From positions 1,349,001 through 1,413,000 of the forward strand of contig NZ_AP022829.1 of the NCBI RefSeq assembly GCF_011405655.1: 64,000 nucleotides of DNA, given 5' to 3'. The translations under genes were made by a program, and so were the position numbers. A model generated the notes under the pieces. The model had not been told where the DNA came from. It was given only the letters and a program-made list of their open reading frames with translations, and made no database searches. This document shows positions 1 through 64,000 of this stretch, one piece after another (position 1 is the stretch's first letter; each line of letters opens with the position of its first letter). Origin of the DNA: Adlercreutzia hattorii (lineage in GTDB: Bacteria; Actinomycetota; Coriobacteriia; Coriobacteriales; Eggerthellaceae).

Positions 1-3000
1 GCGGCCGGCGATGCCGCGGCTACCGACGACACCCTGGCCATGGCGTCCTACCGCCTGCCCGAGCCGAACCTGCCCGAGGGCCACGTGCTCACGGTGTTCC
101 ACAACGGCGACAAGAGCTCCTCGCCGGTGTGGGCCACCAACGCCGACTCGGATGCCAAGCGCGACATCCACCGCTCGGCCATGGTGGACGGCTACGACAC
201 GGCCATCGTGACGAGCTACCCGCAGTTCGCCGCTACCGACAAGAACGGCGCCATCACCGGCGCCGATGGCAAGCCTGTGGAGCAGGACGACAAGGGCCTG
301 GCCGAGAAGACTGGCTTCATCGTGACCGCCAACTCCTCCACGCCGGCCGCCAACACCCCCTACACCTTCTCTATGGAAGGCGTGGCCTACGACGTGGCCA
401 ACCAGGTGTTCAAGCGCGAGCACGTGAACACGGGTCTCTTCAAGGCGCCTACCTCCCAGATCACCGGCATCGTGTGGGACGACACCGAATCCGACGACAA
501 CACGGCTCCCGATGGCGTCCGCGCCGATGACGAGCAAGGGCTTGTCGGCGAAACGGTGCTTGCCACCCAGTGGCACTACGTGCCCAAGGGCGCCGCGGCC
601 TTCGCCCAGATCAAGACCGGCGATGACGCTGGTCTCGTGGAATGGGTCGCCGCTGACGGCACCAAGTCCACCGACGATACGGCCAAGGCGTCTGCCGTGG
701 GTGCCTGGGTGCAGAACATCGGCTTCGGTTCCGACTGGGTGACCACCAAGGCCACCATCGTCAAGGATCCGACCGACATCACCGACCAGGGCAAGGTCGT
801 CTGCATCCCGGTTGTGAGCAACGGCGAGAACCGTGCCGATGCCCGCAACAAGATGGGCGTGGTGGCCGTGAAGACCTATGCGGCCGGAGGTGACCAGAAG
901 GTCGTGGCCGACGCGAAGGAGGCCGCCGGCTACAAGCTGGTGGACGTGGTCGACGGCGAGTACGTCTTCGACAACCTGCCCACGGCCGTGGTGGTGCTCG
1001 ACGCCAACAGCGGCATCGACGAGTACTTCCTTGCCGCCTACCGCGTGGAGCTGGCGGCCCCCAAGAACTACCTGAAGAGCGGCTACGTGAAGGGCGAGCG
1101 GGACCCCTGGCACATCACCACGCCGCATCAACCCGTAAGCTTCGCCGACGCTGACGCGACCGCCAAAGGGCTCGCCGTCGACTCCGACGTGCCCGGCACC
1201 AAGGCGGGCGTGGCCGGCAACGCCGATGAGCTCGACATCACCGATGGCGCCATCAAGGCCCTGTACCAGAGCTGGCCCATCCAGCACCGCTACGCGGCAG
1301 ACGGCTCGGTGCGCGCCAACGACGGCCAGGTCATCCTGGCCGAGGTGAACAACGGCAAGACTGATGGCATCCAGGCCAGCTTCGCCGACATCCCGGTATC
1401 CAACGCCATGGACACCGCCGATGCGGCCACCTACCAGTGGACGCATCCGGTAGTGACCGAGGTGGCCGGCGACGTGGGCGAGATCGCTCCGGCCTACCGC
1501 GCCATCGGCGGCTACGTGTGGAAGGACAACGACTACAAGGACGGCATCTACAACCTTATTCCCGGCACTTACGAGGATATGGTCAACACTGGCATGACCA
1601 TCGAGCTGAAGAACCCCGAGAAGCAGCCGGTGCCCGATCGCCCGACGAGGCTGTACCTGCGCCAGTGGTACTACGATCCCGACCGCACCAACGGCGGCAA
1701 CGCGAACCCCGAGGCGGACGCCCCGGCCGACCACTGGTTCCCGGTGCCCCAGGGCGCGTTCACGGAGTACGGCAACGATCGCGACTGGAGCCCGACCGAG
1801 ACGACCAAGGCGCCCTTCTACTACAAGACGGTGACCACCCGCAACAAGAGCGTTACCGGCAAGGAAGCGGACAGCTACTACCAGTTCGACGACCTGCCCG
1901 TGCGCGTGTTCACCAACGGCAAGGAGTACCTGGCCGGCTACACCGTGGCCATCCGCGGCAACGCCGACTTCAAGCCGGGCAACTACGAGGTGCAGACCTC
2001 CGACTACCCGGTGAAGAACAAACTTGCTGCCCCGAACTACCTGGTTGATCAGTGGAGCTCCAAGGGCAAGGCCAACGTGCGCGGCACCTCGTCGTTTGCC
2101 TACCGCTACGGCCCCGAGACCTTCCCGCTCGTCCGCAGCCAGAAGTTCAGCTCCAACGGCGACATCCATACCATGGACTCCGTCATCGTGCTGGCCGGCT
2201 CCACCACCGCCGATGCCAAGGGCGCCCGCACGGGCAGCACGCCGTATGTGGTGAACTCCGCCGAAAAGAACGGCGACGCGCCGCTGGCCTCGTTCGATCT
2301 GGCCTTCGGCAAGAACGAGACCCGCATGAACGGCGGCTACATCGTGCCGCCCTCCGCTCCCATTGAGGGCTACATCTGGGAGGATGCCAACTACGACGGC
2401 ATCCGCCAGGAGGATGTCTACGATAAGGACGGCAACCTCGTCTCCGAGGGCGAGCGCGGCATCGGCGGCGTGCGCATCCGCCTGACCAAGTACTACCTGG
2501 ACGACACGGACAAGACCGGCGGCCCGGACGGCACGTGGAAGCGCACCTACAGCCTCGACGAGGACGGCAACCGTGTGCTCGACCCGTACTATCCCTTCAC
2601 CACCTCCTACGGCACCGACCCTGAGGAGGATCTGGAGCTGGGCCAGTACCGCACCGACCTTGTGCCCACGAGCTTCAAGAAGCCCGATGCCCAGAAGCTG
2701 GGCGAGGCGAGCGACCGCGAGTATCTGTGCGGCTACACCGTAGCCGTGGCCGACACCAACCCGGCCGACCTCTACCAGCAGGTGCCTAACGAGGCCATCG
2801 CCGGCTACACCCTGACCCGTCCGCACGTCGCGGGCGACCTGGACGACGTGGTGGCGGCGGGTGACGCCGAGGGCATGCGCACCGAGTCCGATGCCTTCCG
2901 CTACTACACCTCCGAGGGCCTGGACGCCCTCGACAGCACCACCAAGGCCTTCGGCCTGGTGAACCGCTTCATCGATATGCAGGACTCCGTGCCGGCGATG

Positions 3001-6000
3001 GGCGATACCGACACGAACGCGGCCTTCAAGAACCGCGTGCCGGCCGGCCGCGCCGACGGCATGGTCATCGTAGCCCACGAGGCGGTGGAAAGCTCCACCA
3101 ACAGTAGGACCCGGAAGAAGTACAAGGGCGTCACCTACGACACCGACGAGAACGTTCAGGTGCAGCAGGGCGGCGACGGCGGCTTCATAAAGATTCCCGA
3201 GACCTCCGTCACCGATGTGGTGTGGGACGACTCCTACAGCGACCAGTGGGCCGCCAGCAACCCGGCGCTCGACCGCGCCGAGCGCGAGCGCTCCTACGAC
3301 GGCATCTACCAGCCTGCCTTCGAGAACGGCCTGCCCGGTCGCACCGTGGCGCTGACCCAGTGGCACTACGTGACCCACGACCTGTGGAAGAGCTTCGCGT
3401 TGCGCCATGCCCATCTGGTCTACAACCTGCTGACCAAGGAGGATCTTGAGAAGCTGGGCATCGACAAGATGGATCCCATCGAGGCCATGAAGACCATCGA
3501 CAAGTCCACCGACGCGACGCTCGAGCTCGCGTGGCAGCTGCTGTACGACCGCGCCGAGCAGGGCGCGGCGGGCGATGTGCGCGCGGCTCGCGGCGACGAG
3601 GGTTCCCTGGGCTTCTGGGTGCGCACCCGCGCCTTTGGCGGCGATGTCACCTGGAAGAACAACGGCACCGCCGAGAATCCCGATTGGGAGCGCGTGGTCA
3701 CCTACAATCCGACTAAGACCGAAACAGTACGCGACGGGAAAGTCCAGTATGTCATCAACGGCGACGGCGACCGCACGGTGACTACCGGTCCTCTGGGCCT
3801 CGACTACCTGGGCAATGTGGTAGACGACCTGGATCCGGGCACCTACGCCTTCTACAACCTGCCCACCAGCTGGGTGGGCTGCGGCGACGAGGTTCACAAG
3901 GAGATCGAGCTCGCGCCGCGCTACGTCGGCAAGGCGGACGCCGCGGATGCCGGCACCACGCTGGTGAACGCCGATAAGGCCACCGACTACCCGGCCGGCT
4001 CGGCCCCGATGTACGGCGATACCTATTCGCTGGCCAGCTACGAGGTGGAAGTGGACGGCCTGGCCCACGACGGCTCCGACGTCGAGGCCAACGGCACCAG
4101 CTGGATGCTCACCCGCTACCACGCCGGCAAGGCCGATGAGGTGGAGTCCGACGTGGCCTCTACCGACCGCTTCGGCGTGGTGAACTTCGCAAAATACGAG
4201 GGCGACGGCAAGACCGTGCGCCTGGGCCGCACCGTTACCGACCGCACCGTCATTGCGGCCGAGGGCGGCCTTGAGATCGCTGGCACGCGCACCTCGGTGG
4301 GCGATGTGGACGGAGAGGAGCACGGCGGACGCATCGTGGTGGCCAGCGAGGGCGTGACCGAGGGAGAGAATAAGACAAAGCTTGCTCACGCGAGCGACTT
4401 TGCCCGCGTGAGCACCGAGCAGCTGGTTCGTCCGGACGCGCCGCTGTACGGCGTGGCGGCCTACGACTGGCTCACGGTGGACATGGAAACGGTCGTGGTG
4501 GATTCCATTCCCGACGGCAACGGCGGCGCGTGGGAGCATAAGGTGCCGCTGCCCAAGGTTGTCCAGGGCGGCGACATGGGCATGGTGCACCCCACCCTGC
4601 AGTCCATCTCCGGCGTGCTGTGGAACGATGAGAACAACAACGGCATCCAGGACGTGACCTTCGACGAGAACGGCAACGTCGTCGAGGAGGAAGAGGCTCT
4701 CGACGGCTACGAGGTCACGCTCGAGCGCTACTACTTCGATGGCGCGAACTGGGTGCCCGACACCACGAAGTGGGCCGCCGGCAACACGGCGTCCGCGGCC
4801 GTGACCACGACCGATCGCGTGCTCATCGAGCGCGATACCGACAAGGCGAAGCCCACCGAGCTCGGCGAGGACATCGACGGCGCGCTGACCGGCACGCCCG
4901 ATCTGTACCGTTCCGGCACCTACCGCTTCGACAACCTCGAGACGGCTGGGCTGCGCAACGTGAACGGCGCCGACACGTGGGTCGTCTACGGCTACAAGGT
5001 GCGCGTGAGCGATCCGCGCGTCGCGGAAAACGAGCTGTTCCGCGCGAAGTACCACCTGACCGGTGCCGGCTATCGCGAGAACTCCGACCTCACCGGCGAC
5101 AACAAGCTGGTGGAGCCCGACGAGTTCATCATCCTTCTGGAGACGGTGGCCGACGACGGCACCACGCCCAACGGCCTGGCGTCCCACGAGTCCAACATCG
5201 TTTACGCGCCGGTATCGAACAACGACGACCAGACGCCGAATTTGGTGCTGGACGAGAACGGCAACCCGGAGCTTGACGCTGACGGCAAGGTGCAGGTGAA
5301 GGATCCGATGACCGCCACCGTCGGCGGCAAGACGCTCGTGGCCTACGACCTCATGATGGGCGCGAGCCGCGATCATAACGACGGCGGCCTCATTAAGCCT
5401 CCCGCCTACGCCATCGACGGCTACGTCTGGGAGGACGCCGACTACGACGGCCTGTACAACTACAACACCGAGACGCGCGTGACCACCGAGAAGGACGGCA
5501 CCAAGACCGAGGCCGACTACCTGGAGTACGGTTACAACGGCAAGCAGGTCATCCTGAAGCAGTACGTGCTCGGCGCCGATGGCACCTGGAAGCCCAACCC
5601 GCACTTCGGCAACGACGGCAACGTCATGGCCGAGAAGATGGCCGGCGGCGTGACCGAGGCGAAGACCGACACGCTGAACCCGACTTCCGGCACCTACAAG
5701 GTGCGCAACGAGGCGGGCCAGATGGTGGACGCCTCCCCGGCCGACCGCCTCACCTTCACCGTGCCGAACTCCACCTACCTGGGCGGCGGCAAGGTGGCCG
5801 TGCTGACCGGCGACAACGAGAACCTGAAGGCGCTCGCCAAGGACGGCACAACCGAGCTGCACGACGTGTCCGGCTACTACCTGTTCGACGAGCTGCCCAC
5901 GGCCGTGCGCACGTGGAACCCGACGACGGGCAAATACGAGTACGCGCTGGCCTCCTACACCGTGGAGGTGAACGGCGAGAAGGGCGACGACGGCATGAGC

Positions 6001-9000
6001 TCGCTGCTCGTGACCACCTTCGAGGCCGAGACCACCGCCCATGACGTGGTGAACTCCCGCGTCCAGCCCATGGTGACGGCCGAGGAGCAGGATCCCGGCA
6101 CCAACAGCGACGGCATGGTCGATGTGTGGAGCCGCTACGAGACCAACAACTACCCGGTGTTCCTCGACGAGCAGAACATCCAGACTGCCGACGAGGTACA
6201 CTCCGACGGTTCGTGCACGATCAAGGAATGCGAGACCGTCGAGGGCGAGATCTCGAAGAACAACGCTGCCTGGCGCATCGTGCTGGCCGGCTTGGCCGAT
6301 GGCGCCAGCTGGGCGAACCAGCGCACCGCCTACGGCTGGTCCGAGAAGCACGAGGCTGTCGACGCCAACGGCCGTCCGACGACGGAGACGGTGACCGGCA
6401 CCTTCGATTACGACTTCGCCATCGGCCAGAACCAGAACGCCATGAATGCCGGCTTCGTGCCGCCCGACCGCTCGAGTCTGGTGGGCCAGGCCTGGTACGA
6501 CGAGGACTACGACGGCAAGAACGATTCCGACACCTCCGACGACCGTATCGACACCGACGACCGCGACAAGACCGAGCAGGGCGTCGAGGGCCTGCGCGTC
6601 ATTCTGACCCAGTACTACTTCGTGCCCACCTACGACAACCACGGCAACCAGCTGCTGGAAGACGAGGACAACAACGTCTTCTACCTGGATACCGAGCATG
6701 CCACCGACGACTATCCCAACGGCGTGCTGCGCTTGGTGGAGAACCGCGGCAAGAACGTCGTCGAGGGCGACGGCGGCAAGGTGTACCTGGTCCGCTCCGG
6801 CCGCACCTACGATTACGACGCCTTGTACAAGGCCGGCGTGCGCGAGCTGAAGGACTCCGGCTACTGGGTTGAGAACACCAATTTCAACGGCGGCCGCCAG
6901 TACAAGGATGGCGAGGATGTCGAGGCCCCCGAGGTGCCGACGACGCCGACCGATCCGGAGAACCCGGGCGAGACGACTGATCCGGAGAACCCGAACCCCG
7001 AGAACCCGGGCGAGACGACCGATCCTGAGAACCCGGGCACCGGCGAGGGCGGCGACACCGGTGGCGACACCGGCGAGGATGCCGGCACTCGTGCCGTTTC
7101 CGAGCCGGCTATGAGCGGATTCGCCCTGGCCCGCTTCGCGGTACGCGCCGCTGCCGAGGGCGCCGAGGGCTTCGCCGACGGCGAGAGCACCGAGGTGACC
7201 GATCCGGGCGATGCCGAGTGCACCCACGAGAACAAGACCTACACCGGCAACGGCGACGGTACCCACAACTGGACCTGCGACGGCGAGGACTGCACCGGCT
7301 CTGCCACCAACGAGCCCTGCTCCGATGGCGATGGCGACGGCAAGTGCGATGGCTGCGGCGACTGCCTGCACCTGCACGACCGCACCTGCACCTACAAGGA
7401 TGCCGACGCCCACACCGTCACCTGCGCCGACTGCAACGCGGTGCTGGGCGAGGAGCCCCACGCCGATGCCAACGGCAACGGCCTGTGCGACGGCTGCAAC
7501 GCCGACATCTGCCAGCACGCCGAGCTTGAATGGAAGGACAACTTCGACAACACCCATACCTCTACCTGCAAGATCTGCGGCAAGAAGACGAGCACGGCGG
7601 CCCATGTGGACGTCAAGCACAACGAGGCCGCGGCTCCCGGCGCCACGACGCCGGAGGGCCCGGACGGGCGCTGCGACATCTGCGGCGGGCTGGTCATCGA
7701 GGATCACCAGCTATGGACCTACACCGACGCCGAGGGCATCTACGACTTCGACAACCTGCCGGGCTACGTGCTCGTGAGCAGCGAGGTCGATCATCCGGCC
7801 GCTCCGGGCGAGGACATCAGCAAGGTGTACCAGCCCTACGGTGTGGCCAACGCCAACGGAACGGCGCTTTCCACCTCCGATCTGGTGGCCCTGCAGAAGC
7901 GCCCCGTGTCGGTCGGTATGATTCGCCAGCTCACGGCCTCCGAGATCGTCTCGCTGTCCGCCAGCCAGGTGGAGGCCATCAAGGCCGATGCCGACATGAT
8001 GGCCGCCTTCGAGGCGCGCCAGACCGAGCTTGAGGTCGCCGACCCGGCCTTCACGTCGGCCACTCCGTACCTGACCGGCTACGCCATCAAGGTGGTGGAC
8101 GACTCCGGCGAGTACGTGGCCAGCCGCTTCCACGTGGAAGGCGCCGGTACCGGCGACAACTCCGACCTCACCTCCTTCGAGTCCTCGCTGACCGACAACG
8201 TCAACGCCGAGAACGAGAAGATCAACGAGGTCTACGCCGTTGTGGCCGAGAAGATCGCCGACGACGCCGATCTGAACGGCGGCATCCTGTCGAGCGCCTA
8301 CGCGGTCCGCTACCTGAAGACCAACTACGACCTGGCCAACCGCATGTACTACAAGCGCGCCTTCGACGCCGGCCTCACCAAGCAGCTGCCGGTGCTCATC
8401 GACGGCAACGTCTGGAACGATGTGAACTCCGACGGCCTCATGGACGAGGAAGAGGATCGCATCGAGGGCGCCGTCGTGCGACTCGTGCGCTATTGGTACG
8501 ACGAGACCGGCATCGGCTACTGGGAGAAGGTGCCCGGCCAGACCCCCGGCGGCGACGGCAGCTTCGAGAACTCCGGGCTCACCCGCGAGGAGTACGACGA
8601 GATCGTGGCCATGGCCGACCCGTTCAAGCTGGATGAGGGCCAGACCATGACCTCCGAGGAGCAGAAGGCCGCGGCCGACGCCATGGTGGCCTACATCAGC
8701 GAGCTGTACGCGTCCGTGGCGGCCATGCCCGAGGGCGCCGAGCGCGCCGAGGCGGCCACGAAGAACCTCATGAAGCTGAACGTGCTGTACCACAACCACA
8801 CCGAGTTCCTCACCAGCTACATGGAGGTCGTGCCCGGCGAGGATACCGACGATACCGATAACACCGACAATACCGGCAATACCGACAACACCGGCAATGG
8901 CGGCGAGCCGACGACTCAGGCCGACGACGATGCCGCTGGCGGCGGCACTGGCAACGGCGACGAGCCGGCCGGCGTCGAGGAGCTGGTCATCTACAGCGCT

Positions 9001-11682
9001 TGGACCAACGCCGAGCGCGACCTGACCATCCTCGTGGGCGCCGAGACGCCGGAGGACGAGAAGGGCGTGTGGCGCCGCGACTGGACCTTCACTCAGGATA
9101 TGCTGGAGGATCTGACCGGCCGCCACGACCTGTCCAAGGACGGCCTGGGCACGAACTACCCGTATCTGCCGCTGACTGCCACTCAGGCGCTGGACGTGGC
9201 CGATGACGACGAGAAGTTCTTCGATCAGAACGGCTACGAGTACGTGCCCGGCGCCGGCTTCGACGTGACCGACGAGAACGGCCACTGGCAGTTCCTGGCC
9301 TATGGCACCGGCCTGCACCAGGCCTCGTCCGATTCCGCCGCCTTCAAGGTGCTGTTCTCCTACCGCGCCGAAATCGTGAGCTACCCGGATGAGGACGTGT
9401 GGGCGCCCACGCTGCAGCACATCGGCACCGAGGACAACGACTGGGTCAACTCCGACTTCGACGACGAGACCCAGGCCCTGGCGCCGAACGTGGAAGATTC
9501 CGCCGGCCACGACGGCGACTACACCTTGCCGGCCACGGACAACCTGAACACGGCTCTGGCGAAGGCCGGCGACCTCATCGTGCTGACCCGTTTGGCCGAT
9601 GGCTCCGAGTCCTCCACGACCTCCGGCGCCTACGCCACCTACGCCTCCCAGCCGGGCGGCGACGAGGACGTGAGCTGCGACCACGTGGACGAGGATACCG
9701 TCGCCGCGGCGGCAGACGGCCTGTGCGATAAGTGCGGTCTGTGCCTGCACGAGAAGGACGAGAACGGCCTGTGCACGGTGGAGGATTGCAGCCATGTCGG
9801 CATGGAGTGCTGCGGCACCGCCACCGGCCCGGCCGACTCCGACGAGGGCGACAAGCCCGTCATCGACGTCACCAAGCCCGAGGGCGGCGACACCACCCAG
9901 CCGGGCGAGGGCGACGGCGGCGAGTCCGAGACCTTCACCACTCGCGTCATGACCGCCAGCGCCTCGGGTGCCCGGGCCGACGCCGGTGCCAGCGATGGCA
10001 GCAGCAACGGCAGCTACAGCGACGACTACGTGACCGAGATGCTCGCCTGGATCGCCACGGCCACCCAGGAGGATCTGGAGAAGATGGATCAGCAGCGCCA
10101 CGACGCCATCTTCGGCAAGCACCAGACCGACAAGAACGGCAAGCTGCTGTACCTGGATACCGTGATCGAGGACGGCAAGGAGGTTGAGAAGGTCAGCACC
10201 AACGCGACCAACTCCGTCACCGGCGAACCGAACCTGCCCTACTACGACAACACCGGTAGCCAGCGTCTCTACGAGGCCTACCAGGCCCGCATGGCGTCGC
10301 TCGTCGGCGACAACCAGTGGTTCGACCTGAACTGGTTCAGCTCCCTGGCCCACGGCTACGGCCTGTTCCGCATCGCCCAGGCGCACATCGCCGGTGTGGT
10401 GTGGCAGGACGAAAACTACAACGGCATCCAGGATGCCGGCGAGAACGTGCGCATCCCGAATGTGCCGGTGAGCCTGAAGCGCTACTGGTTCGGCACCGAC
10501 GCGACCGGCACCGGCTGGCATCTGGACGAGACGTTCAACCAGACTACTACCTCCGATGGCCAGGGCCACTGGATCTTCGACAACCTGGACGTCGCCGGCA
10601 AGCGCATGGTGAACGGCAAGGAGACCACGGTGCTCTACGGCTTCGAGGTGACGGTGGACGACCTGCCGAAGGGTTACGGCGTCACCCATATGAACCGCGG
10701 AACCGCCACCACCGACTCCGACCTGAACGAGGACACCAAGCTCATCGAGCCGGGCGATCCGCAGGGCGGCCTCATCGTGCTGGCCCAGCCCTCCGACCGT
10801 CGCGATCTGGTGGGCAACGGCGCCGCCTACATCCTGGGGCCGAATGGCACCGTGTGGGTGATCTCGCTGTCCGAGGATTCCGACTACAACGACACGGGCC
10901 TGGTGCCCTACGCGCTCGCGGCCATCGCCGGCGTGGTCTTCGACGATCCCGAGGCCGACGGCCTGCAGGGCGAGACGGCCGTGGCGGTGCCCGGGCAGAA
11001 GGTCTACCTCGACCGCATGGTCATCGACGTGGACGCCGTCGGCTTCAACGGCGCCTCCTACGCCCCGACGGCCCTTGCGGCCATAGAGGGCCAGAAGGTG
11101 CGCTCCGAGGACGGCTGGGCCGAGGTGGCCTCCATGGAGACCGACGTCGACGGCGCCTACCGCTTCGACGGCCTGCCCATGGTGGACGGCAACGACAAGC
11201 CCTACCTGTACCGGGTGCGCTCCTACATGCCCGACGGCAAGGAGTGGGTGGCCATCAACGTCGGCTCCGACGAGAACAACGACTCCGACTGGGGCGAGGC
11301 GGCCAACTCCGTGGTCGGCGCCGGCGGCCGGGTCGGCATCACGCCGGCCATGTCGGTGCTCGGCGCGTTCCAAACGGTGCGCACGACGCCCAACGCCTAC
11401 GGCCAGAAGTTCAACCTGCTGGTTCCCTACAACTGGGTGCCGGAGGACGGACGGTCGGTCGACCTCGGCATGACCGGCGACGCCGACGCGTGGCGCACCC
11501 TCGTGTTCACGACGCCGTGGGGCACCCGCCTGTTCTACGTGAAGCTCCCGCAGACCGGCGACGAGCTCCTGCCGTGGATGGTGGGGCTGGCCCTGGTCGC
11601 GGCCCTCGGCCTCGTTCTCGCCGTGGCCGCCCGCCGGCGCGACGATGACGACGAGGAGGAAGAAGAGACCCCTGAGGAGTAG
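1..11682 (+). CDS. Giant LPxTG-anchored SdrD/Cna-B repeat surface adhesin (5' end outside window)
   Basis: The frame is open from base 1, so the N-terminus and signal peptide lie to the left; about 3,893 codons are visible. At least ten SdrD/Cna-B-type modules open with a G-x-V/I-W-x-D core followed by Asp/Asn-rich loops of the D-x-N-x-D-G type, likely calcium-binding. They begin near bases 461, 1504, 2362, 3211, 4606, 5412, 6478, 8398, 10387 and 10924. A Pro/Glu/Thr-rich linker of PENPGETTDPENP repeats covers about 6930-7035. Cys-rich CxxC modules lie at about 7215-7720 and 9670-9820. The C-terminus has the sortase motif LPQTG (11545-11559), a hydrophobic helix and RRR, then an unusual acidic tail. 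The family builds stalk-like cell-wall adhesins. Ligand and exact fold are unknown; the surface location is well supported. Confidence 0.93.
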   Translation, partial: AAGDAAATDDTLAMASYRLPEPNLPEGHVLTVFHNGDKSSSPVWATNADSDAKRDIHRSAMVDGYDTAIVTSYPQFAATDKNGAITGADGKPVEQDDKGLAEKTGFIVTANSSTPAANTPYTFSMEGVAYDVANQVFKREHVNTGLFKAPTSQITGIVWDDTESDDNTAPDGVRADDEQGLVGETVLATQWHYVPKGAAAFAQIKTGDDAGLVEWVAADGTKSTDDTAKASAVGAWVQNIGFGSDWVTTKATIVKDPTDITDQGKVVCIPVVSNGENRADARNKMGVVAVKTYAAGGDQKVVADAKEAAGYKLVDVVDGEYVFDNLPTAVVVLDANSGIDEYFLAAYRVELAAPKNYLKSGYVKGERDPWHITTPHQPVSFADADATAKGLAVDSDVPGTKAGVAGNADELDITDGAIKALYQSWPIQHRYAADGSVRANDGQVILAEVNNGKTDGIQASFADIPVSNAMDTADAATYQWTHPVVTEVAGDVGEIAPAYRAIGGYVWKDNDYKDGIYNLIPGTYEDMVNTGMTIELKNPEKQPVPDRPTRLYLRQWYYDPDRTNGGNANPEADAPADHWFPVPQGAFTEYGNDRDWSPTETTKAPFYYKTVTTRNKSVTGKEADSYYQFDDLPVRVFTNGKEYLAGYTVAIRGNADFKPGNYEVQTSDYPVKNKLAAPNYLVDQWSSKGKANVRGTSSFAYRYGPETFPLVRSQKFSSNGDIHTMDSVIVLAGSTTADAKGARTGSTPYVVNSAEKNGDAPLASFDLAFGKNETRMNGGYIVPPSAPIEGYIWEDANYDGIRQEDVYDKDGNLVSEGERGIGGVRIRLTKYYLDDTDKTGGPDGTWKRTYSLDEDGNRVLDPYYPFTTSYGTDPEEDLELGQYRTDLVPTSFKKPDAQKLGEASDREYLCGYTVAVADTNPADLYQQVPNEAIAGYTLTRPHVAGDLDDVVAAGDAEGMRTESDAFRYYTSEGLDALDSTTKAFGLVNRFIDMQDSVPAMGDTDTNAAFKNRVPAGRADGMVIVAHEAVESSTNSRTRKKYKGVTYDTDENVQVQQGGDGGFIKIPETSVTDVVWDDSYSDQWAASNPALDRAERERSYDGIYQPAFENGLPGRTVALTQWHYVTHDLWKSFALRHAHLVYNLLTKEDLEKLGIDKMDPIEAMKTIDKSTDATLELAWQLLYDRAEQGAAGDVRAARGDEGSLGFWVRTRAFGGDVTWKNNGTAENPDWERVVTYNPTKTETVRDGKVQYVINGDGDRTVTTGPLGLDYLGNVVDDLDPGTYAFYNLPTSWVGCGDEVHKEIELAPRYVGKADAADAGTTLVNADKATDYPAGSAPMYGDTYSLASYEVEVDGLAHDGSDVEANGTSWMLTRYHAGKADEVESDVASTDRFGVVNFAKYEGDGKTVRLGRTVTDRTVIAAEGGLEIAGTRTSVGDVDGEEHGGRIVVASEGVTEGENKTKLAHASDFARVSTEQLVRPDAPLYGVAAYDWLTVDMETVVVDSIPDGNGGAWEHKVPLPKVVQGGDMGMVHPTLQSISGVLWNDENNNGIQDVTFDENGNVVEEEEALDGYEVTLERYYFDGANWVPDTTKWAAGNTASAAVTTTDRVLIERDTDKAKPTELGEDIDGALTGTPDLYRSGTYRFDNLETAGLRNVNGADTWVVYGYKVRVSDPRVAENELFRAKYHLTGAGYRENSDLTGDNKLVEPDEFIILLETVADDGTTPNGLASHESNIVYAPVSNNDDQTPNLVLDENGNPELDADGKVQVKDPMTATVGGKTLVAYDLMMGASRDHNDGGLIKPPAYAIDGYVWEDADYDGLYNYNTETRVTTEKDGTKTEADYLEYGYNGKQVILKQYVLGADGTWKPNPHFGNDGNVMAEKMAGGVTEAKTDTLNPTSGTYKVRNEAGQMVDASPADRLTFTVPNSTYLGGGKVAVLTGDNENLKALAKDGTTELHDVSGYYLFDELPTAVRTWNPTTGKYEYALASYTVEVNGEKGDDGMSSLLVTTFEAETTAHDVVNSRVQPMVTAEEQDPGTNSDGMVDVWSRYETNNYPVFLDEQNIQTADEVHSDGSCTIKECETVEGEISKNNAAWRIVLAGLADGASWANQRTAYGWSEKHEAVDANGRPTTETVTGTFDYDFAIGQNQNAMNAGFVPPDRSSLVGQAWYDEDYDGKNDSDTSDDRIDTDDRDKTEQGVEGLRVILTQYYFVPTYDNHGNQLLEDEDNNVFYLDTEHATDDYPNGVLRLVENRGKNVVEGDGGKVYLVRSGRTYDYDALYKAGVRELKDSGYWVENTNFNGGRQYKDGEDVEAPEVPTTPTDPENPGETTDPENPNPENPGETTDPENPGTGEGGDTGGDTGEDAGTRAVSEPAMSGFALARFAVRAAAEGAEGFADGESTEVTDPGDAECTHENKTYTGNGDGTHNWTCDGEDCTGSATNEPCSDGDGDGKCDGCGDCLHLHDRTCTYKDADAHTVTCADCNAVLGEEPHADANGNGLCDGCNADICQHAELEWKDNFDNTHTSTCKICGKKTSTAAHVDVKHNEAAAPGATTPEGPDGRCDICGGLVIEDHQLWTYTDAEGIYDFDNLPGYVLVSSEVDHPAAPGEDISKVYQPYGVANANGTALSTSDLVALQKRPVSVGMIRQLTASEIVSLSASQVEAIKADADMMAAFEARQTELEVADPAFTSATPYLTGYAIKVVDDSGEYVASRFHVEGAGTGDNSDLTSFESSLTDNVNAENEKINEVYAVVAEKIADDADLNGGILSSAYAVRYLKTNYDLANRMYYKRAFDAGLTKQLPVLIDGNVWNDVNSDGLMDEEEDRIEGAVVRLVRYWYDETGIGYWEKVPGQTPGGDGSFENSGLTREEYDEIVAMADPFKLDEGQTMTSEEQKAAADAMVAYISELYASVAAMPEGAERAEAATKNLMKLNVLYHNHTEFLTSYMEVVPGEDTDDTDNTDNTGNTDNTGNGGEPTTQADDDAAGGGTGNGDEPAGVEELVIYSAWTNAERDLTILVGAETPEDEKGVWRRDWTFTQDMLEDLTGRHDLSKDGLGTNYPYLPLTATQALDVADDDEKFFDQNGYEYVPGAGFDVTDENGHWQFLAYGTGLHQASSDSAAFKVLFSYRAEIVSYPDEDVWAPTLQHIGTEDNDWVNSDFDDETQALAPNVEDSAGHDGDYTLPATDNLNTALAKAGDLIVLTRLADGSESSTTSGAYATYASQPGGDEDVSCDHVDEDTVAAAADGLCDKCGLCLHEKDENGLCTVEDCSHVGMECCGTATGPADSDEGDKPVIDVTKPEGGDTTQPGEGDGGESETFTTRVMTASASGARADAGASDGSSNGSYSDDYVTEMLAWIATATQEDLEKMDQQRHDAIFGKHQTDKNGKLLYLDTVIEDGKEVEKVSTNATNSVTGEPNLPYYDNTGSQRLYEAYQARMASLVGDNQWFDLNWFSSLAHGYGLFRIAQAHIAGVVWQDENYNGIQDAGENVRIPNVPVSLKRYWFGTDATGTGWHLDETFNQTTTSDGQGHWIFDNLDVAGKRMVNGKETTVLYGFEVTVDDLPKGYGVTHMNRGTATTDSDLNEDTKLIEPGDPQGGLIVLAQPSDRRDLVGNGAAYILGPNGTVWVISLSEDSDYNDTGLVPYALAAIAGVVFDDPEADGLQGETAVAVPGQKVYLDRMVIDVDAVGFNGASYAPTALAAIEGQKVRSEDGWAEVASMETDVDGAYRFDGLPMVDGNDKPYLYRVRSYMPDGKEWVAINVGSDENNDSDWGEAANSVVGAGGRVGITPAMSVLGAFQTVRTTPNAYGQKFNLLVPYNWVPEDGRSVDLGMTGDADAWRTLVFTTPWGTRLFYVKLPQTGDELLPWMVGLALVAALGLVLAVAARRRDDDDEEEEETPEE
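6930..7035 (+). repeat. Pro/Glu/Thr linker repeats in the giant adhesin
   Basis: Imperfect tandem repeats encode PENPGETTDPENP-type units. The string looks like a flexible or extended cell-wall linker placed just before the Cys-rich modules. Confidence 0.8.
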
Positions 11683-59877: not shown

Positions 59878-59932
59878 TATACTGAGCTTCACCACACTGT
59901 GTCATCGTCCTGGTTCTTCATATAAGACCAGG
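59878..59932 (+). promoter_or_regulatory. -10 element and leader hairpin before the kinase locus
   Basis: TATACT (59878-59883) would start a transcript with a leader of about 65 nt. A hairpin at 59909-59932 (CCTGG-TTCTT with AAGA-CCAGG, one bulge) lies within it. Confidence 0.45.
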
Positions 59933-59957
59933 TCTTAGGCGAAAAGGAGCGCGAACG

Positions 59958-61145
59958 GTGGAACTGTCCCTTCATCGCTGGCCCTATGCGGGGCGCGCTT
60001 TCCGGCGCGCGTCCGCTCCTCCTCTGCTGGGCGGCCTCCTCACTTTCTCCCTCGCCCTTATGACGGTGGGCGTCGTCGTGTATGCCGGTGCCGTTCCATC
60101 TCTGGCGGAACAGAGTCCTCTTGTGCGACAGTGGGCGGCCTCCGATCACGCGCGGGCGCTCGGTCCCGATGCGCCGCTTATGAGCGCGCATGGCCTTTCC
60201 GGCACCGGCGGCGGCTCTTCTGGAGCCGGAGGCGCGAATGGCCCGGGGGCAACGAGCGCCACATCGAACGGTACGGCTCCGGCAACTGATGCGGGCGCGC
60301 TGTCCGACCCTGCGGATCTTCTGCTGTTGGGAGGGCGGAGCGCGTCGGTGCTTGGCGGTTCCGGCTTCGTTGCTCCGACGGATAGGGGCGCGAGCGCTGA
60401 GCGCGGATCCTCGAACTCGGCACGCGTCGAGGCGCCGGCGTCCTCGGGTAATCCGAATACTTCAGGCTCGAACGCGACCGGCTCTGGTTCCGCGAACGGA
60501 GGCGGCGGCGCTTTTTCGGGGAATTCCTCGGGCGGCGGTTCGGCCTCCGGTGAACCTTCGGGTGGCGGCTCGTCTTCAGGCGGCTCGTCGGGCGGCAATG
60601 CTGTTGCGCCGACACCGAGCGAACCGGAACCCGACCCGGAGCCGACTATCCCCGTTGAGGCCGGAGGCCCGGTTCCCGAGGATATGGAGCGGCGCATATG
60701 CAGCACCTTGCGCAGCGAACACGACGTGCTCAAGGCGGAGGCCGCGAAGGTGTACCAATGCGCCGACGATTACGAGCGCCTTTGCATGACGCGCCCGCAG
60801 CAGCCGCGCATCGAAGCGGCCCGGACGGTTTCGAGCCTGCTGCGAGAAGTGCAGTTGGCAGATTCCAACATGATGATGGAAGTGAGCTACGCGTGCAATC
60901 GCGACGACGGAACCATGTACGGCGCCTCGCGCTATAGCGGAAACTTCTCGCAGATGCATCAGTCTTACGGCGACCTGATCAACTTACTGTACGAGTTGGA
61001 CAATGCCTGGTCGGGGAATTGCTATTTCGAAGATCCCGCCGCGAATGCCGATTATTGGTCGGGCCGTGTGACAAGAAGCGCAGCGACGGGGCGCATGGCG
61101 TATCTGGAGGCCTACGAGGCCCATGTGGGCGGAGCGCGTCCGTGA
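59958..61145 (+). CDS. Membrane-anchored Ser/Gly-rich secreted protein, first gene of kinase locus
   Basis: This 395-residue protein has a short basic cytoplasmic segment, one helix near 24-45 (LLGGLLTFSLALMTVGVVVY), then about 180 residues of Ser/Gly/Ala/Asn/Thr-rich linker (GSGSANGGGGAFSGNSS type) and a PEPDPEPTIP stretch. The C-terminal roughly 160 residues form a compact helical domain with four Cys residues (ICSTLRSEHD, YQCADDY, RLCMTRP, YACNRDD), possibly two disulphides. No family is recognised. The GTG at 59958 follows AAAAGGAGCG. It overlaps the kinase gene by four bases, so it is probably a partner or target of that kinase. Confidence 0.72.
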   Translation: MELSLHRWPYAGRAFRRASAPPLLGGLLTFSLALMTVGVVVYAGAVPSLAEQSPLVRQWAASDHARALGPDAPLMSAHGLSGTGGGSSGAGGANGPGATSATSNGTAPATDAGALSDPADLLLLGGRSASVLGGSGFVAPTDRGASAERGSSNSARVEAPASSGNPNTSGSNATGSGSANGGGGAFSGNSSGGGSASGEPSGGGSSSGGSSGGNAVAPTPSEPEPDPEPTIPVEAGGPVPEDMERRICSTLRSEHDVLKAEAAKVYQCADDYERLCMTRPQQPRIEAARTVSSLLREVQLADSNMMMEVSYACNRDDGTMYGASRYSGNFSQMHQSYGDLINLLYELDNAWSGNCYFEDPAANADYWSGRVTRSAATGRMAYLEAYEAHVGGARP

Positions 61146-62998
61146 CGGCGGTGCTAGAGGCGCGCCCCGTTGGCGGTGCGCTGGCCGATGACGCCTGCGG
61201 CGGTTCCGTGCGACTTGTTCGGGTCGAGGCGTTCGAGCCTGCGGTCTATGTCGCCCCCGAGCATCGCGACGCCTACGAGCGACGCTTCGTCACGCTGCTG
61301 GTGGACGAGGCCTCGCGCCGCCGAGGCGGTGTAGGGGAGGTGCTTCATGCCCGCAATCCCCGTGGCGAGCGGTTCGCGCTCAAGCGTTTGCGGCGGTCCG
61401 ATGGCGAAGGAGGGGACGATGAACTCGCCGAGGCCCGTCGAGCCGCATTCGATGCCGAATACGACGCCCATCGCGCCTTGTCCCCGTTGCGCGGCTTCCC
61501 CCGCCTCTACGGACGCGGCCGCGTCGGTGAGGATTCGGTCATCGTGATGGAATGGGTGGAGGGGGTCACGCTCGAAGAGGCGGCTCGCGCTCTGGCCGTG
61601 GACGACGAGGGGCGGCTCTCGCCGCTTACGGTGGCCCGCATCGGACGCGACCTGTTCGATCTTCTGGCTCGTATGGCCTATGTTGAGGGCGGCCTGGCCC
61701 ATCGTGATGTGGCCCCGCGCAATATCATGATCGATACGGGACAGCTTTCCGCGGCCGATCAGGTGGAGGAGGGCGCCTTCCAGCTCGTTCTCATCGATTT
61801 CGGATCGGCTGTTCCGCTGGAAAGCGCGGATTCCTCGCTGACGGCGCGATGGGGGGCGCCCTTGGGAGCGACGGCCGATTTCGCCGCCCCCGAGATGCTG
61901 ACCGACGACGTATCGGGTGCGGTAGCTCGGCGCCGATCGCCCGCCGTCGATGTGTACGCGGCCGCCGGCGTGCTGTATCAGTTGATGGAGGGGCATCCGC
62001 CCTATGACCTCAGCTTTGCCGGCCGCAGCCAGCGCGAAGGCCGGTCTGCCTACCGCATCAAGACGGAGTTCTCGCCCGAGACGCCCGCCGGTGCCCATGG
62101 GAGCGCCGCGGACGTTCGCGCAGTGCTTGCTTCGGAGCCTGAGGTAGCCGTAGCAGTGGGGCGCGCCGCGGCAGAGTTGGATGGCGCGCCGGCGCCGCAT
62201 CGCGTTCGAGCGGCCTTGTCTGCGGTGGACGACCAGCTCGCAGAAGTGCTCGTGGCCTGCCTCGTTCCTGAGCAGAGTCGGCGCCCCCGGGCGAGGGAGG
62301 TGCGGGAGGCGCTCGCCCTGTTCTGCTCCCAGTACGCCGACAATGTGGCCCGCTCTCTGCGCGGCGAGCCCTTGGCAGCGTGCCCCTTGGGCGAGGCGGC
62401 GGCAACGGCGGTCCGGCGTCGTCGGCGTTTGCGTCGGGCAGCCCGCGTGGCCGCCGACGCACTCTCAGCGGCCGTTGCCGTCGGCGGAGCCGTGGCCGTA
62501 GGGCTTCTCACTCAGGACATGGCGGTGTCTTTTCCAGCGGGCCATGCAGTGTGGTCGGGGTTGATGCCGGGATCTGCGGTCTCTGCAGCGCTTCTGCTGC
62601 CCCTTGCGGGCGCCCTTATCGCCCGCGGCCGCGAGAGAGACACCGGCTTCGGTTTCGCGCGAGGGCTTCTCGGGTCGCTTCTGGGCGGCACGGTGGCGGG
62701 TCTTCTGGCCTCGCTCACGGCATGGCCGAGCGAGTCGGTCTCGGACGCTCTCTATGCGGTGCTGTTCCTCGCCGTCGTCGCTCCTTTACCGGGATTGGTC
62801 GCCGATTGGGCCTTGGCGCTGCCTCCGTTGTCGTCTGCGTCCTCCACCGCCCCGTTGGCGCGGCCCGTCTTGCCCTGGGGTGCGGTGCCTTCCGAGGATC
62901 GTGCCATCTCGACTGCGAGCCGCGAGGCCTTGGCGTTAGAGACAACGTCCGAGGCAATTTACGAATTGGCTGATGAGACCAATGAGGAGGGCGTATGA
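61142..62998 (+). CDS. Transmembrane Ser/Thr protein kinase (Hanks type)
   Basis: This 618-residue protein has an N-terminal kinase domain: ATP-binding Lys81 in FALKRL, VIVMEWVEGV as hinge, catalytic HRD (187-189) with Asn194, DFG (219-221) and APE (249-251). The Gly-rich loop is weak (GGVGEV). After about residue 440, four membrane helices follow. This differs from PknB, which has one helix and outer PASTA domains; here the kinase is N-terminal and the protein ends with a multi-helix membrane part. The GTG at 61142 overlaps the upstream stop (GTGA), with GGAG 8 nt before it. The FHA gene overlaps its end (ATGA). Confidence 0.85.
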   Translation: MTAVLEARPVGGALADDACGGSVRLVRVEAFEPAVYVAPEHRDAYERRFVTLLVDEASRRRGGVGEVLHARNPRGERFALKRLRRSDGEGGDDELAEARRAAFDAEYDAHRALSPLRGFPRLYGRGRVGEDSVIVMEWVEGVTLEEAARALAVDDEGRLSPLTVARIGRDLFDLLARMAYVEGGLAHRDVAPRNIMIDTGQLSAADQVEEGAFQLVLIDFGSAVPLESADSSLTARWGAPLGATADFAAPEMLTDDVSGAVARRRSPAVDVYAAAGVLYQLMEGHPPYDLSFAGRSQREGRSAYRIKTEFSPETPAGAHGSAADVRAVLASEPEVAVAVGRAAAELDGAPAPHRVRAALSAVDDQLAEVLVACLVPEQSRRPRAREVREALALFCSQYADNVARSLRGEPLAACPLGEAAATAVRRRRRLRRAARVAADALSAAVAVGGAVAVGLLTQDMAVSFPAGHAVWSGLMPGSAVSAALLLPLAGALIARGRERDTGFGFARGLLGSLLGGTVAGLLASLTAWPSESVSDALYAVLFLAVVAPLPGLVADWALALPPLSSASSTAPLARPVLPWGAVPSEDRAISTASREALALETTSEAIYELADETNEEGV

Positions 62999-63975
62999 CC
63001 CCCATCGATGCCACACCCACTTCCGTGCTGTTCGATTTGGCGAAGCGCCATTGCGGCGTGAGCCACAAGGAGCTGGCGGGCTTGCTGCTGTCGGGCCGCC
63101 CGCTCTCCGACGGGCGCAGCCCCCAGAGCCGCCTGGGCGATCGTACCTGGGTGTCGCGGTTCATCGTGCACGCGCCGGCTGGAACGCTCTCAGATAGCTA
63201 CTTCTGCGACTACGCCGTCGGCGCGCTCCGGTTCGCGGCGCGCATGAAATCGCTCAGCAAGCGCGCGCTCACGGGTGAGGCCATTCTCGATATCGTCTGC
63301 GGAGAGGCCGGCCGGGCCATGGACGACGCCCTGAAGGCATGCGGCCAGAGTCCCACGCTGTACCGCAACATGATGGAACGCATCGCCTGCGAGGGATCGC
63401 TGACGGCCGACGAGCGCGCCGAGGTGGCCCTGGTGCTGTTGGTGACCGCCGCTTGCACGGCCGATGTGCGACGCGCCGTGGCCGAGGCGCGCACTTTCTC
63501 CGAGAAGATGCACGGAGGCGGTCTTGCTACACCGCCCTTGGCGCCGATGCCTCAGGGCGCTGGGCGCACGGCGGCCCTAACCGGCGCCGACGATCGCCCG
63601 CGCTGGTTGGGGCTTCTGCGCATCGTCGACGGCGTCGTTGCCGGCGCGCCCCAGTGGGTGGAACCCACAGCGACGGGTGCCGAGGTGGGGGCGCTCGCGC
63701 TAACGGAAGGGGCCGTAAGCGAAGTCGGCCCCGATGTGTCCGCCCGCCATGCGCGCCTCTGGCGCGACGATGCGGGCGCGTGGTGGGTAGAAGGATGCGA
63801 TTCCCGTCACGGCACGATGCTCGTGAACGGTCTTACCGGCGAGGAGACGGTGGTGGAGCCGCCCCGCGGCCAGCGCGATGGCTGGCAAGCCTCTCCCGTG
63901 CCCGTGGCACCGGGAGACCAGCTCTGCCTCGCCGCCTCCACCACCTTCCTCCTCATAGAAGGCTACCCGGGGTAA
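62995..63975 (+). CDS. FHA-domain protein with unknown N-terminal domain
   Basis: This 326-residue protein ends in an FHA phosphothreonine-binding domain at about 235-320: SEVGPDVSARHARLW contains the S-x-x-H core and DSRHGTMLVNG the following NG turn. The first 170 residues are helical and begin LFDLAKRHCGVSHKELAGLL, which resembles a helix-turn-helix or death-fold-like start, but no family is recognised. The ATG overlaps the kinase stop. The natural reading is that FHA binds a phosphothreonine made by the adjacent kinase. The locus may continue beyond the window. Confidence 0.82.
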   Translation: MTPIDATPTSVLFDLAKRHCGVSHKELAGLLLSGRPLSDGRSPQSRLGDRTWVSRFIVHAPAGTLSDSYFCDYAVGALRFAARMKSLSKRALTGEAILDIVCGEAGRAMDDALKACGQSPTLYRNMMERIACEGSLTADERAEVALVLLVTAACTADVRRAVAEARTFSEKMHGGGLATPPLAPMPQGAGRTAALTGADDRPRWLGLLRIVDGVVAGAPQWVEPTATGAEVGALALTEGAVSEVGPDVSARHARLWRDDAGAWWVEGCDSRHGTMLVNGLTGEETVVEPPRGQRDGWQASPVPVAPGDQLCLAASTTFLLIEGYPG

Positions 63976-64000
63976 GTAACGAGTGCGATCGCACCGTATT

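Follow-up and report, generated by a model that had tools for sequence, protein, structure and literature searches.

A candidate two-piece receptor kinase module with an FHA-fold adaptor in Adlercreutzia hattorii and other Coriobacteriales

How could a membrane kinase with no outer domain of its own receive a signal, and what could an FHA-fold protein encoded beside it do with the result? This question is raised by a run of three genes in Adlercreutzia hattorii, located in a stretch of 64,000 nucleotides (contig NZ_AP022829.1, positions 1,349,001 to 1,413,000; the whole stretch is called the window) of a 2.9 Mb single-contig genome. The original prediction, made from the letters of the window, had described three genes with 4-base overlaps, and these were present as described: all three genes are on the + strand and the adjoining ones overlap by GTGA and ATGA. 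We read them, with about even confidence, as a two-piece receptor kinase module with an FHA-fold adaptor. The genes and their parts are as follows.

59958-61145, + strand: gene 1, single-pass anchored protein of 395 amino acids, GTG start (from the sequence; its relatives lie upstream of the kinase)
60024-60080, + strand: membrane helix of gene 1, residues 23-41 (hydropathy)
60186-60662, + strand: Ser/Gly-rich linker of gene 1, residues about 77-235 (sequence)
60663-61142, + strand: helical domain of gene 1, residues 236-395, putatively on the outer side (AlphaFold2, leave-one-out profile)
61142-62998, + strand: gene 2, Hanks-type kinase with four C-terminal membrane helices, 618 amino acids, GTG start (Pfam, hydropathy)
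61322-62302, + strand: kinase domain of gene 2, residues 61-387 (Pfam match)
61700-61723, + strand: catalytic loop HRDVAPRN of gene 2, residues 187-194, with Ala for the usual Lys (alignment)
62453-62803, + strand: four membrane helices of gene 2, residues about 438-554, with short loops between them (hydropathy)
62995-63975, + strand: gene 3, all-helical domain followed by an FHA fold, 326 amino acids (Pfam, predicted structure)
63016-63513, + strand: all-helical N-terminal domain of gene 3, residues 8-173, without a recurring Pfam family (model)
63604-63963, + strand: FHA fold of gene 3, residues 204-323, without the phosphate-binding Arg (alignment, model, structure match)

The locus had been thought to be cut by the right edge of the window. 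Retrieval of the downstream genes showed that this was wrong. The last base of gene 3 is 63975, and the gene beyond it is convergent, being read from the other strand and stopping at 64004 in the numbering of the window. The window therefore holds the entire operon, and a fourth operon gene past the edge was ruled out. The upstream neighbour of the trio is priA. Among relatives, 18/32 loci again showed a 4-base overlap of genes 1 and 2, and 11/32 one of genes 2 and 3.

Relatives were sought in 296 Coriobacteriia genomes, where matches of about 80 bits or more were considered, the neighbourhood limit was 4 kb and a home-made script served to call the relatives' genes. The kinase matches that reached 230 bits numbered 50, from 49 genomes. 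Every one of the 50 had a gene-3 relative within this limit, 48 of them downstream on the kinase's own strand and 2 on the opposite strand; second pieces of already counted kinases (in G276, G153 and G273) were excluded from this pairing count. Among 57 weaker kinase matches (86-197 bits), 47 had a gene-3 relative within 4 kb (39 upstream, 7 downstream, 1 on the opposite strand), and 10 had none of at least 80 bits within that distance. Kinase and gene 3 occurred together in 77 genomes, gene 3 being found in 80 and the kinase in 79. For closer study, 40 kinase/gene-3 loci and 20 loci of the gene 1 outer domain were hand-picked from the matches. When five genes on either side were counted at 31 loci of the split type, in which the kinase and the protein upstream of it are separate genes as here (L082 dropped), the kinase was present in 31, gene 3 in 31 and gene 1 in 25 (by blastp clustering), while the next most frequent families reached 7. 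The association therefore survives changes of order, strand and flanks. Chance or an inherited neighbourhood was rejected as its source, the flanks varying among loci and no other family being found in more than 7/31. The original prediction had staked its idea on the trio co-occurring in related genomes; such co-occurrence was found, and the kinase and FHA genes proved to be conserved neighbours in the genomes searched.

Gene 1 encodes a basic N-terminus, a single hydrophobic helix (about residues 23-41 by hydropathy), a Ser/Gly-rich stalk and a C-terminal domain of 160 residues. Modelled alone with AlphaFold2 on a four-row alignment, the C-terminal domain formed a helical bundle of long helices, with a predicted local distance difference test (pLDDT) score of 92.4 and a predicted template modelling score of 0.87. 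The anchored, Ser/Gly-rich architecture with a helical, putatively outer domain that had been predicted was thus seen; the cysteines to which the prediction drew attention are real and are not kept in relatives. No model of Pfam, NCBIfam or PADLOC matched gene 1 at the limits used. Leave-one-out profiles recovered 28/31 of the proteins upstream of the kinase (E <0.001); these runs were made without L008, L009 and L082, and near relatives stayed in the training set. The profile of the gene-1 family (A5) used 24 of 34 upstream proteins.

Gene 2 showed four hydrophobic segments near residues 438, 475, 509 and 536, as had been predicted, with only short loops between them in the hydropathy scan, which leaves gene 2 without an outer domain of its own. 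Some related kinases are built differently. Nine of the 57 weaker kinases were read for architecture, and all nine carried about one membrane helix and then a further domain. By eye, these domains were WG repeats (L092, L093, L095), DUF6273-like (L094, L096-L098) or unnamed (L077, L078); Pfam, run on three of the fused kinases, found WG in L093, DUF6273 in L097 and nothing named in that part of L077. The fused-domain kinases share the kinase branch, the Ser in place of the catalytic-loop Lys and, mostly, a nearby gene-3 relative with the split-type kinases, but differ in their single helix, the domain after it and the gene order, in which the FHA protein usually comes first. A tree was built from 30 split-type, 9 fused and 10 other kinases (L008, L064 and L082 dropped). 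Split and fused kinases stood on one side of a branch with support of 100/99, and the fused group and L076 stood on one side of another branch with 96/97. Branches were long, one outgroup row was very long and the root was unsettled; rooting of split against fused kinases was dropped for this reason, and the direction of change was not settled. Since related kinases carry a domain fused beyond the membrane helix, the idea that gene 1 is the outer part gains support.

The outer domain of gene 1 was also reused elsewhere. It was found in 126/296 genomes, and in 19/20 fetched loci away from kinases it followed a CxxC..CxxC motif and a membrane helix within one frame. The motif was seen in 0/34 kinase-linked frames (L008, L009 and L082 included), and a Pfam check of two of the anchors gave zinc ribbons. 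The outer domains appear to be shared parts, mounted on zinc-ribbon anchors or on separate partners of kinases, with others fused to kinases. Both the fused sister kinases and the reuse on other anchors thus support the earlier idea of an outer part supplied by the first gene. Coriobacteriales were rich in zinc-ribbon proteins that cross the membrane once and differ in their outer domains (L118, L121-L134 and L098:11267-12403); the outer part of the one in L098 is PASTA plus C-type lectin, and others carry the helical domain of gene 1.

The same observations could be read with gene 1 as an effector or substrate: the kinase would phosphorylate its short basic inner tail, or govern its placement, and so tune an envelope function, the signal entering through the four helices. 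The association data are the same for this account (the 50/50 pairs, the 28/31 upstream proteins and the 31 neighbourhoods), and an outer domain found on zinc-ribbon anchors away from kinases has a job without them. By eye, no strongly conserved Ser or Thr was present in the inner tail, and a domain fused beyond the membrane helix in the sister kinases fits sensing better, so that we consider the effector account unlikely.

Gene 2 matched Pfam Pkinase (8.6e-17, above the cut-off), and K81, HRD 187-189, DFG 219-221 and APE 249-251 were all found. The original prediction had called these motifs intact. They are present, but "intact" does not hold, as the catalytic-loop Lys is replaced by Ala191. 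This residue, two past the HRD Asp, was Ser in 39/40 kinases and Ala in the window protein, so the Lys of Hanks-type kinases is lost family-wide and the kinase could be weak or dead. At 15 further loci with other kinases, of which 13 came from the same family and 2 from other phyla, the motif read HRDxKP at 12 and HGDLH at 1, with no read at 2. Tyrosine kinases as a rule also lack this Lys (HRDLAARN). The remaining Hanks-type set (the equivalents of K72, E91, HRD Asp, Asn and DFG Asp), namely K81, the C-helix Glu, the HRD Asp, the Asn and the DFG Asp, was kept in 40/40 kinases, the HRD Arg in 38/40 and the activation-loop Thr234 in 27/31. The kinase alignment dropped L007, L009 and L064, and the kinase counts also dropped L008; the near-copies L082 and L083 were both counted, and the counts of 40 for the kinase and 38 for the FHA fold include the window's own protein. 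The catalytic residues kept in 40/40 and Thr234 kept in 27/31 suggest that the kinase is active.

A pseudokinase serving as a scaffold, with the module acting by binding alone and without phosphotransfer, is a quite improbable alternative in our view. The replaced catalytic-loop Lys (39 Ser and 1 Ala, the window's, of 40) points in that direction, together with the loss of the FHA Arg described below. Against it stand the five residues kept in 40/40 kinases and the absence of this Lys from tyrosine kinases. Other losses in the superfamily argue in the same sense. In the passages of PMC1821047 consulted, all but one of ten key kinase residues had been lost in some kinase-like family, and families of kinase-like fold had lost single key residues yet kept function; the lysine of those passages is K72 and not the catalytic-loop one, so they bear on the Ser here by analogy only.

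Gene 3 matched Pfam FHA (7.3e-5, above the cut-off) over residues 245-279 only. In its model (mean pLDDT 79.8, four alignment rows), residues 8-173 formed an all-helical domain, which a loose linker joined to an FHA fold at 204-323. Foldseek gave nothing at E <=0.001 for gene 3, and its best match, at 6.4e-3, was an FHA domain; a second aligner placed the FHA fold at Z 11.9 with a root-mean-square deviation of 2.3 over 101 aligned residues. Among 30 gene-3 relatives, the Pfam families that recurred were FHA (30/30 at E <=0.1) and Yop-YscD_cpl (11) only. For the helical domain no named fold surfaced, a result that barely tests it, the FHA part having filled the match list. Further short FHA-only proteins occur: a relative of 104 amino acids (L113:3336-3650) lies about 7 kb downstream of the module in G218, a genome of the same order, where it may be a duplicate, and similar short matches occur in other genomes.

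The FHA fold was therefore as predicted, with an unusual binding side. According to the passages of PMC4238996, Gly, Arg, Ser, His and Asn are the five most conserved FHA residues, and those of PMC6468809 state that the Arg and Ser are expected to contact the phosphate. The phosphate-binding Arg of the Gly-Arg pair was absent in 38/38 gene-3 proteins (Ala233 in the window), whereas the Gly, the phosphate-side Ser and the structural His were kept in 38/38 and the Asn in 35/38, the window having His272. The Arg directly after the FHA Ser was absent in 31/32 split-type proteins and kept in six from fused-type loci. The FHA alignment dropped L007, the FHA counts also dropped L008 and L009, and the gene-3 profile (A3) used 30 of 37 gene-3 proteins. 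The helical N-terminus and C-terminal FHA fold of the original prediction thus stood, with the Arg and Asn lost from the window protein.

With the Arg absent in 38/38, reading of phosphothreonine in the ordinary way is doubtful, and the residues suggest that the FHA fold of gene 3 probably does not read it in the usual manner. The relay that the prediction implied, in which the kinase would phosphorylate threonines on itself or on gene 1 and gene 3 would bind the phosphothreonine, is accordingly weakened, although its FHA component is there. The fold at Z 11.9, the Ser and His in 38/38, the Asn in 35/38 and Thr234 in 27/31 are what such a relay would use, and the neighbouring pair PknQ-MupFHA binds through its FHA domain in the passages of PMC4238996. 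The same passages report that binding of MupFHA to its kinase was severely disrupted by changing the Ser or the Arg, the latter to Ala. The missing second Arg in 31/32 split-type proteins and the IGR and VGR motifs retained in this genome's PknB-linked FHA proteins also speak against an ordinary relay, which we regard as unlikely.

The layout had been said to differ from PknB-PASTA systems, and this was borne out. Both place a membrane Hanks kinase beside FHA proteins in Actinomycetota, as in PknB-PASTA/FhaA/FhaB/PstP. However, PknB/Stk1 kinases combine a single membrane helix with PASTA repeats on the outside, whereas gene 2 scored 44.6 bits against the PknB/Stk1 NCBIfam cut-off of 450, no PASTA match was found in it at E <=1, and it has four membrane helices and Ser or Ala at the catalytic-loop Lys, with its outer domain on a separate protein and an FHA protein that lacks the Arg and has no FhaA_N match. 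A separate locus of the same genome (L111) encodes PknB (HRDIKPQN, three PASTA stretches), FhaA (IGR) and FhaB (VGR), with a phosphatase-like gene beside PknB that was read by eye only. With this canonical set in the same genome, the residue losses are specific to the trio module. PknQ-MupFHA of Mycobacterium ulcerans is also comparable: its membrane kinase has an outer domain and is bound by an FHA protein encoded in synteny with it (PMC4238996). In PknQ, however, the FepB-like outer domain is fused, the passages of PMC4238996 name no separate outer protein, and MupFHA, unlike gene 3, has the full set of Gly, Arg, Ser, His and Asn, its binding depending on the Arg.

The closest PADLOC model to the kinase was mad6 (2.5e-28), the MAD6 kinase of the methylation-associated defence system (MADS). 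This match and the patchy distribution would suit a defence or conflict module of the MAD6 or PD-T4-6 kind. But gene 2 reached 43.2 bits against the NCBIfam MAD6 cut-off of 460, genes 1 and 3 matched no PADLOC model at E <=0.01, and for MADS companion genes no other family occurred in more than 7/31 neighbourhoods (PADLOC was run on the trio, not on these neighbours). Nor did any phage record match gene 3, and a defence role seems very improbable. Named defence or lanthipeptide kinases were all far under their NCBIfam cut-offs; the prediction had allowed that the kinase might belong to a known named system, and no NCBIfam model reached its cut-off. Among the titles and abstract starts listed in searches of open-licence literature, no description of this gene set was found. 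A kinase-FHA gene pair as such is known, as the passages on PknQ-MupFHA show (PMC4238996); what sets this module apart is the combination of a split outer part, a four-helix kinase, a Ser catalytic loop and an Arg-less FHA partner.

In the two-piece receptor reading, gene 1 would carry an outer helical domain for sensing or binding on a flexible stalk with a one-helix anchor. Gene 2 would act as the signal-transducing kinase; as the loops between its four helices are short, it would receive the signal of gene 1 inside the membrane, through these helices. Gene 3 would be a dedicated adaptor on the inner side, using its FHA fold to dock on the kinase or on the kinase's product. The genes, the domains, the conserved association and the loss of the Lys and Arg are what we observed, and sensing, the contact of genes 1 and 2, activity, output and topology are what we infer from them.

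Besides the catalytic-loop substitution, several observations weigh against this reading. There were 112 gene-3 matches of 80 bits or more, and 14 of these were without such a kinase within 4 kb. In the same genus the kinase was patchy, with matches in 4/7 genomes, and in G001 (L064) a stop splits it into two called frames, while genes 1 and 3 look open; this trio is apparently a decaying copy. A crude hydropathy scan of 32 split-type loci gave exactly four segments in 21/32 and 2-6 in the others. The leave-one-out profiles missed L072, L076 and L084, so the outer part is sometimes different. For the outer domain of gene 1, Foldseek gave nothing at E <=0.001 and the second aligner reached at best Z 11.4, below the 13 noted for bundles, with generic helical bundles only. 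When a four-helix bundle like that of Tar/Tsr was looked for, chemoreceptor sensor domains did appear among the matches (Z about 9-10), but alongside designed proteins and allergens. A named fold family for this domain was dropped, the structural matches being generic bundles only.

The range of the module was narrow. A scan of GTDB genomes with the kinase as query returned five loci, three of Coriobacteriales and two with distant kinases, and a record of Adlercreutzia mucosicola DSM 19490 encodes a kinase 65% identical to gene 2. With the whole-gene-3 profile, full-length matches were obtained in 10 of 296 genomes from across the phylum, all of the same order, and the matches listed outside the order started at profile position 160 or later. 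In the class search, all genomes listed with a gene-3 match belong to this order as well. Kinases of at least 230 bits were present in 19/95 genomes of the family. In G002 neither the kinase nor gene 3 was matched, and its priA region is without the trio. Phage records gave no match to gene 3 (the kinase was not searched there), and with the kinase as query 38 plasmid records were returned, of which none reached 80% coverage of the kinase (this search was made with the kinase and not with gene 3). The best of these was a Collinsella aerofaciens DUF6273 protein at 39%, and one fused sister kinase is recorded as a "DUF6273 domain-containing protein" in the plasmid collection. Mobile cargo was dropped as an explanation, given no phage match for gene 3 and no plasmid record covering 80% of the kinase.

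Three short features flank the genes.

59878-59904, + strand: -10-like TATACT (59878-59883) and ACCACACTGTGTCA (59891-59904), a putative promoter
59923-59937, + strand: palindrome TAAGACC-A-GGTCTTA between the promoter-like site and the start, a possible operator
63983-63994, no strand assigned: palindrome GTGCGATCGCAC in the gap between gene 3 and the convergent gene, read by eye, a possible terminator

The -10-like box and ACCACACTG were also upstream of gene 1 in the same-genus loci L059 and L067, and not in L064. The short promoter-like site occurred once in the window against 0.26 expected, and upstream of gene 1 in 3/34 loci, all of one genus. At 59891-59903, ACCACACTGTGTC is common to the operon's 5' region and the 5' arm of a conserved intergenic element just past the window (L006:9798-10003; G000:C1:1414796-1415002, minus strand), whose 3' arm is the complement of ACCACACTGTGTC; chance, a shared promoter or RNA pairing are possible reasons. 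The element is about 150-210 nt long, has a long closing stem and is preceded by a -10-like TACAAT. Rfam gave no match to it in the stretches searched, and one copy folded well beyond shuffles (z -5.6). Five copies, each met in the surroundings of this kinase at a distance of 1.6-6.6 kb, went into a model that matched in 21/95 genomes of the family, one of which had 16 weaker copies; the only new copy below E 1e-30 was at the priA site of G002, a genome without the trio. As the copies were found by looking near the kinase, a link between element and kinase cannot be read from proximity. The element may be an RNA gene or a dispersed repeat. At the other end, a reading frame of 3893 codons or more is already open where the window starts (1-11682), and it probably encodes a giant surface protein.

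More broadly, and more tentatively than for the two-piece module itself, Coriobacteriales may possess receptor kinases with interchangeable outer sensors, either separate or fused and drawn from a pool common to zinc-ribbon anchors, that work with an FHA-fold adaptor not gated by phosphothreonine; we put our confidence in this wider picture at somewhat below even. Such a system would give gut Actinomycetota another transmembrane kinase pathway beside PknB, seemingly confined to one order, with the sensor on a separate gene where it could be swapped or fused. The module is small, consisting of three proteins, and the fused sister kinases offer a natural comparison. If the FHA partner binds without phosphothreonine, the annotation rule that a kinase next to an FHA protein means a phospho-relay would fail for this group.

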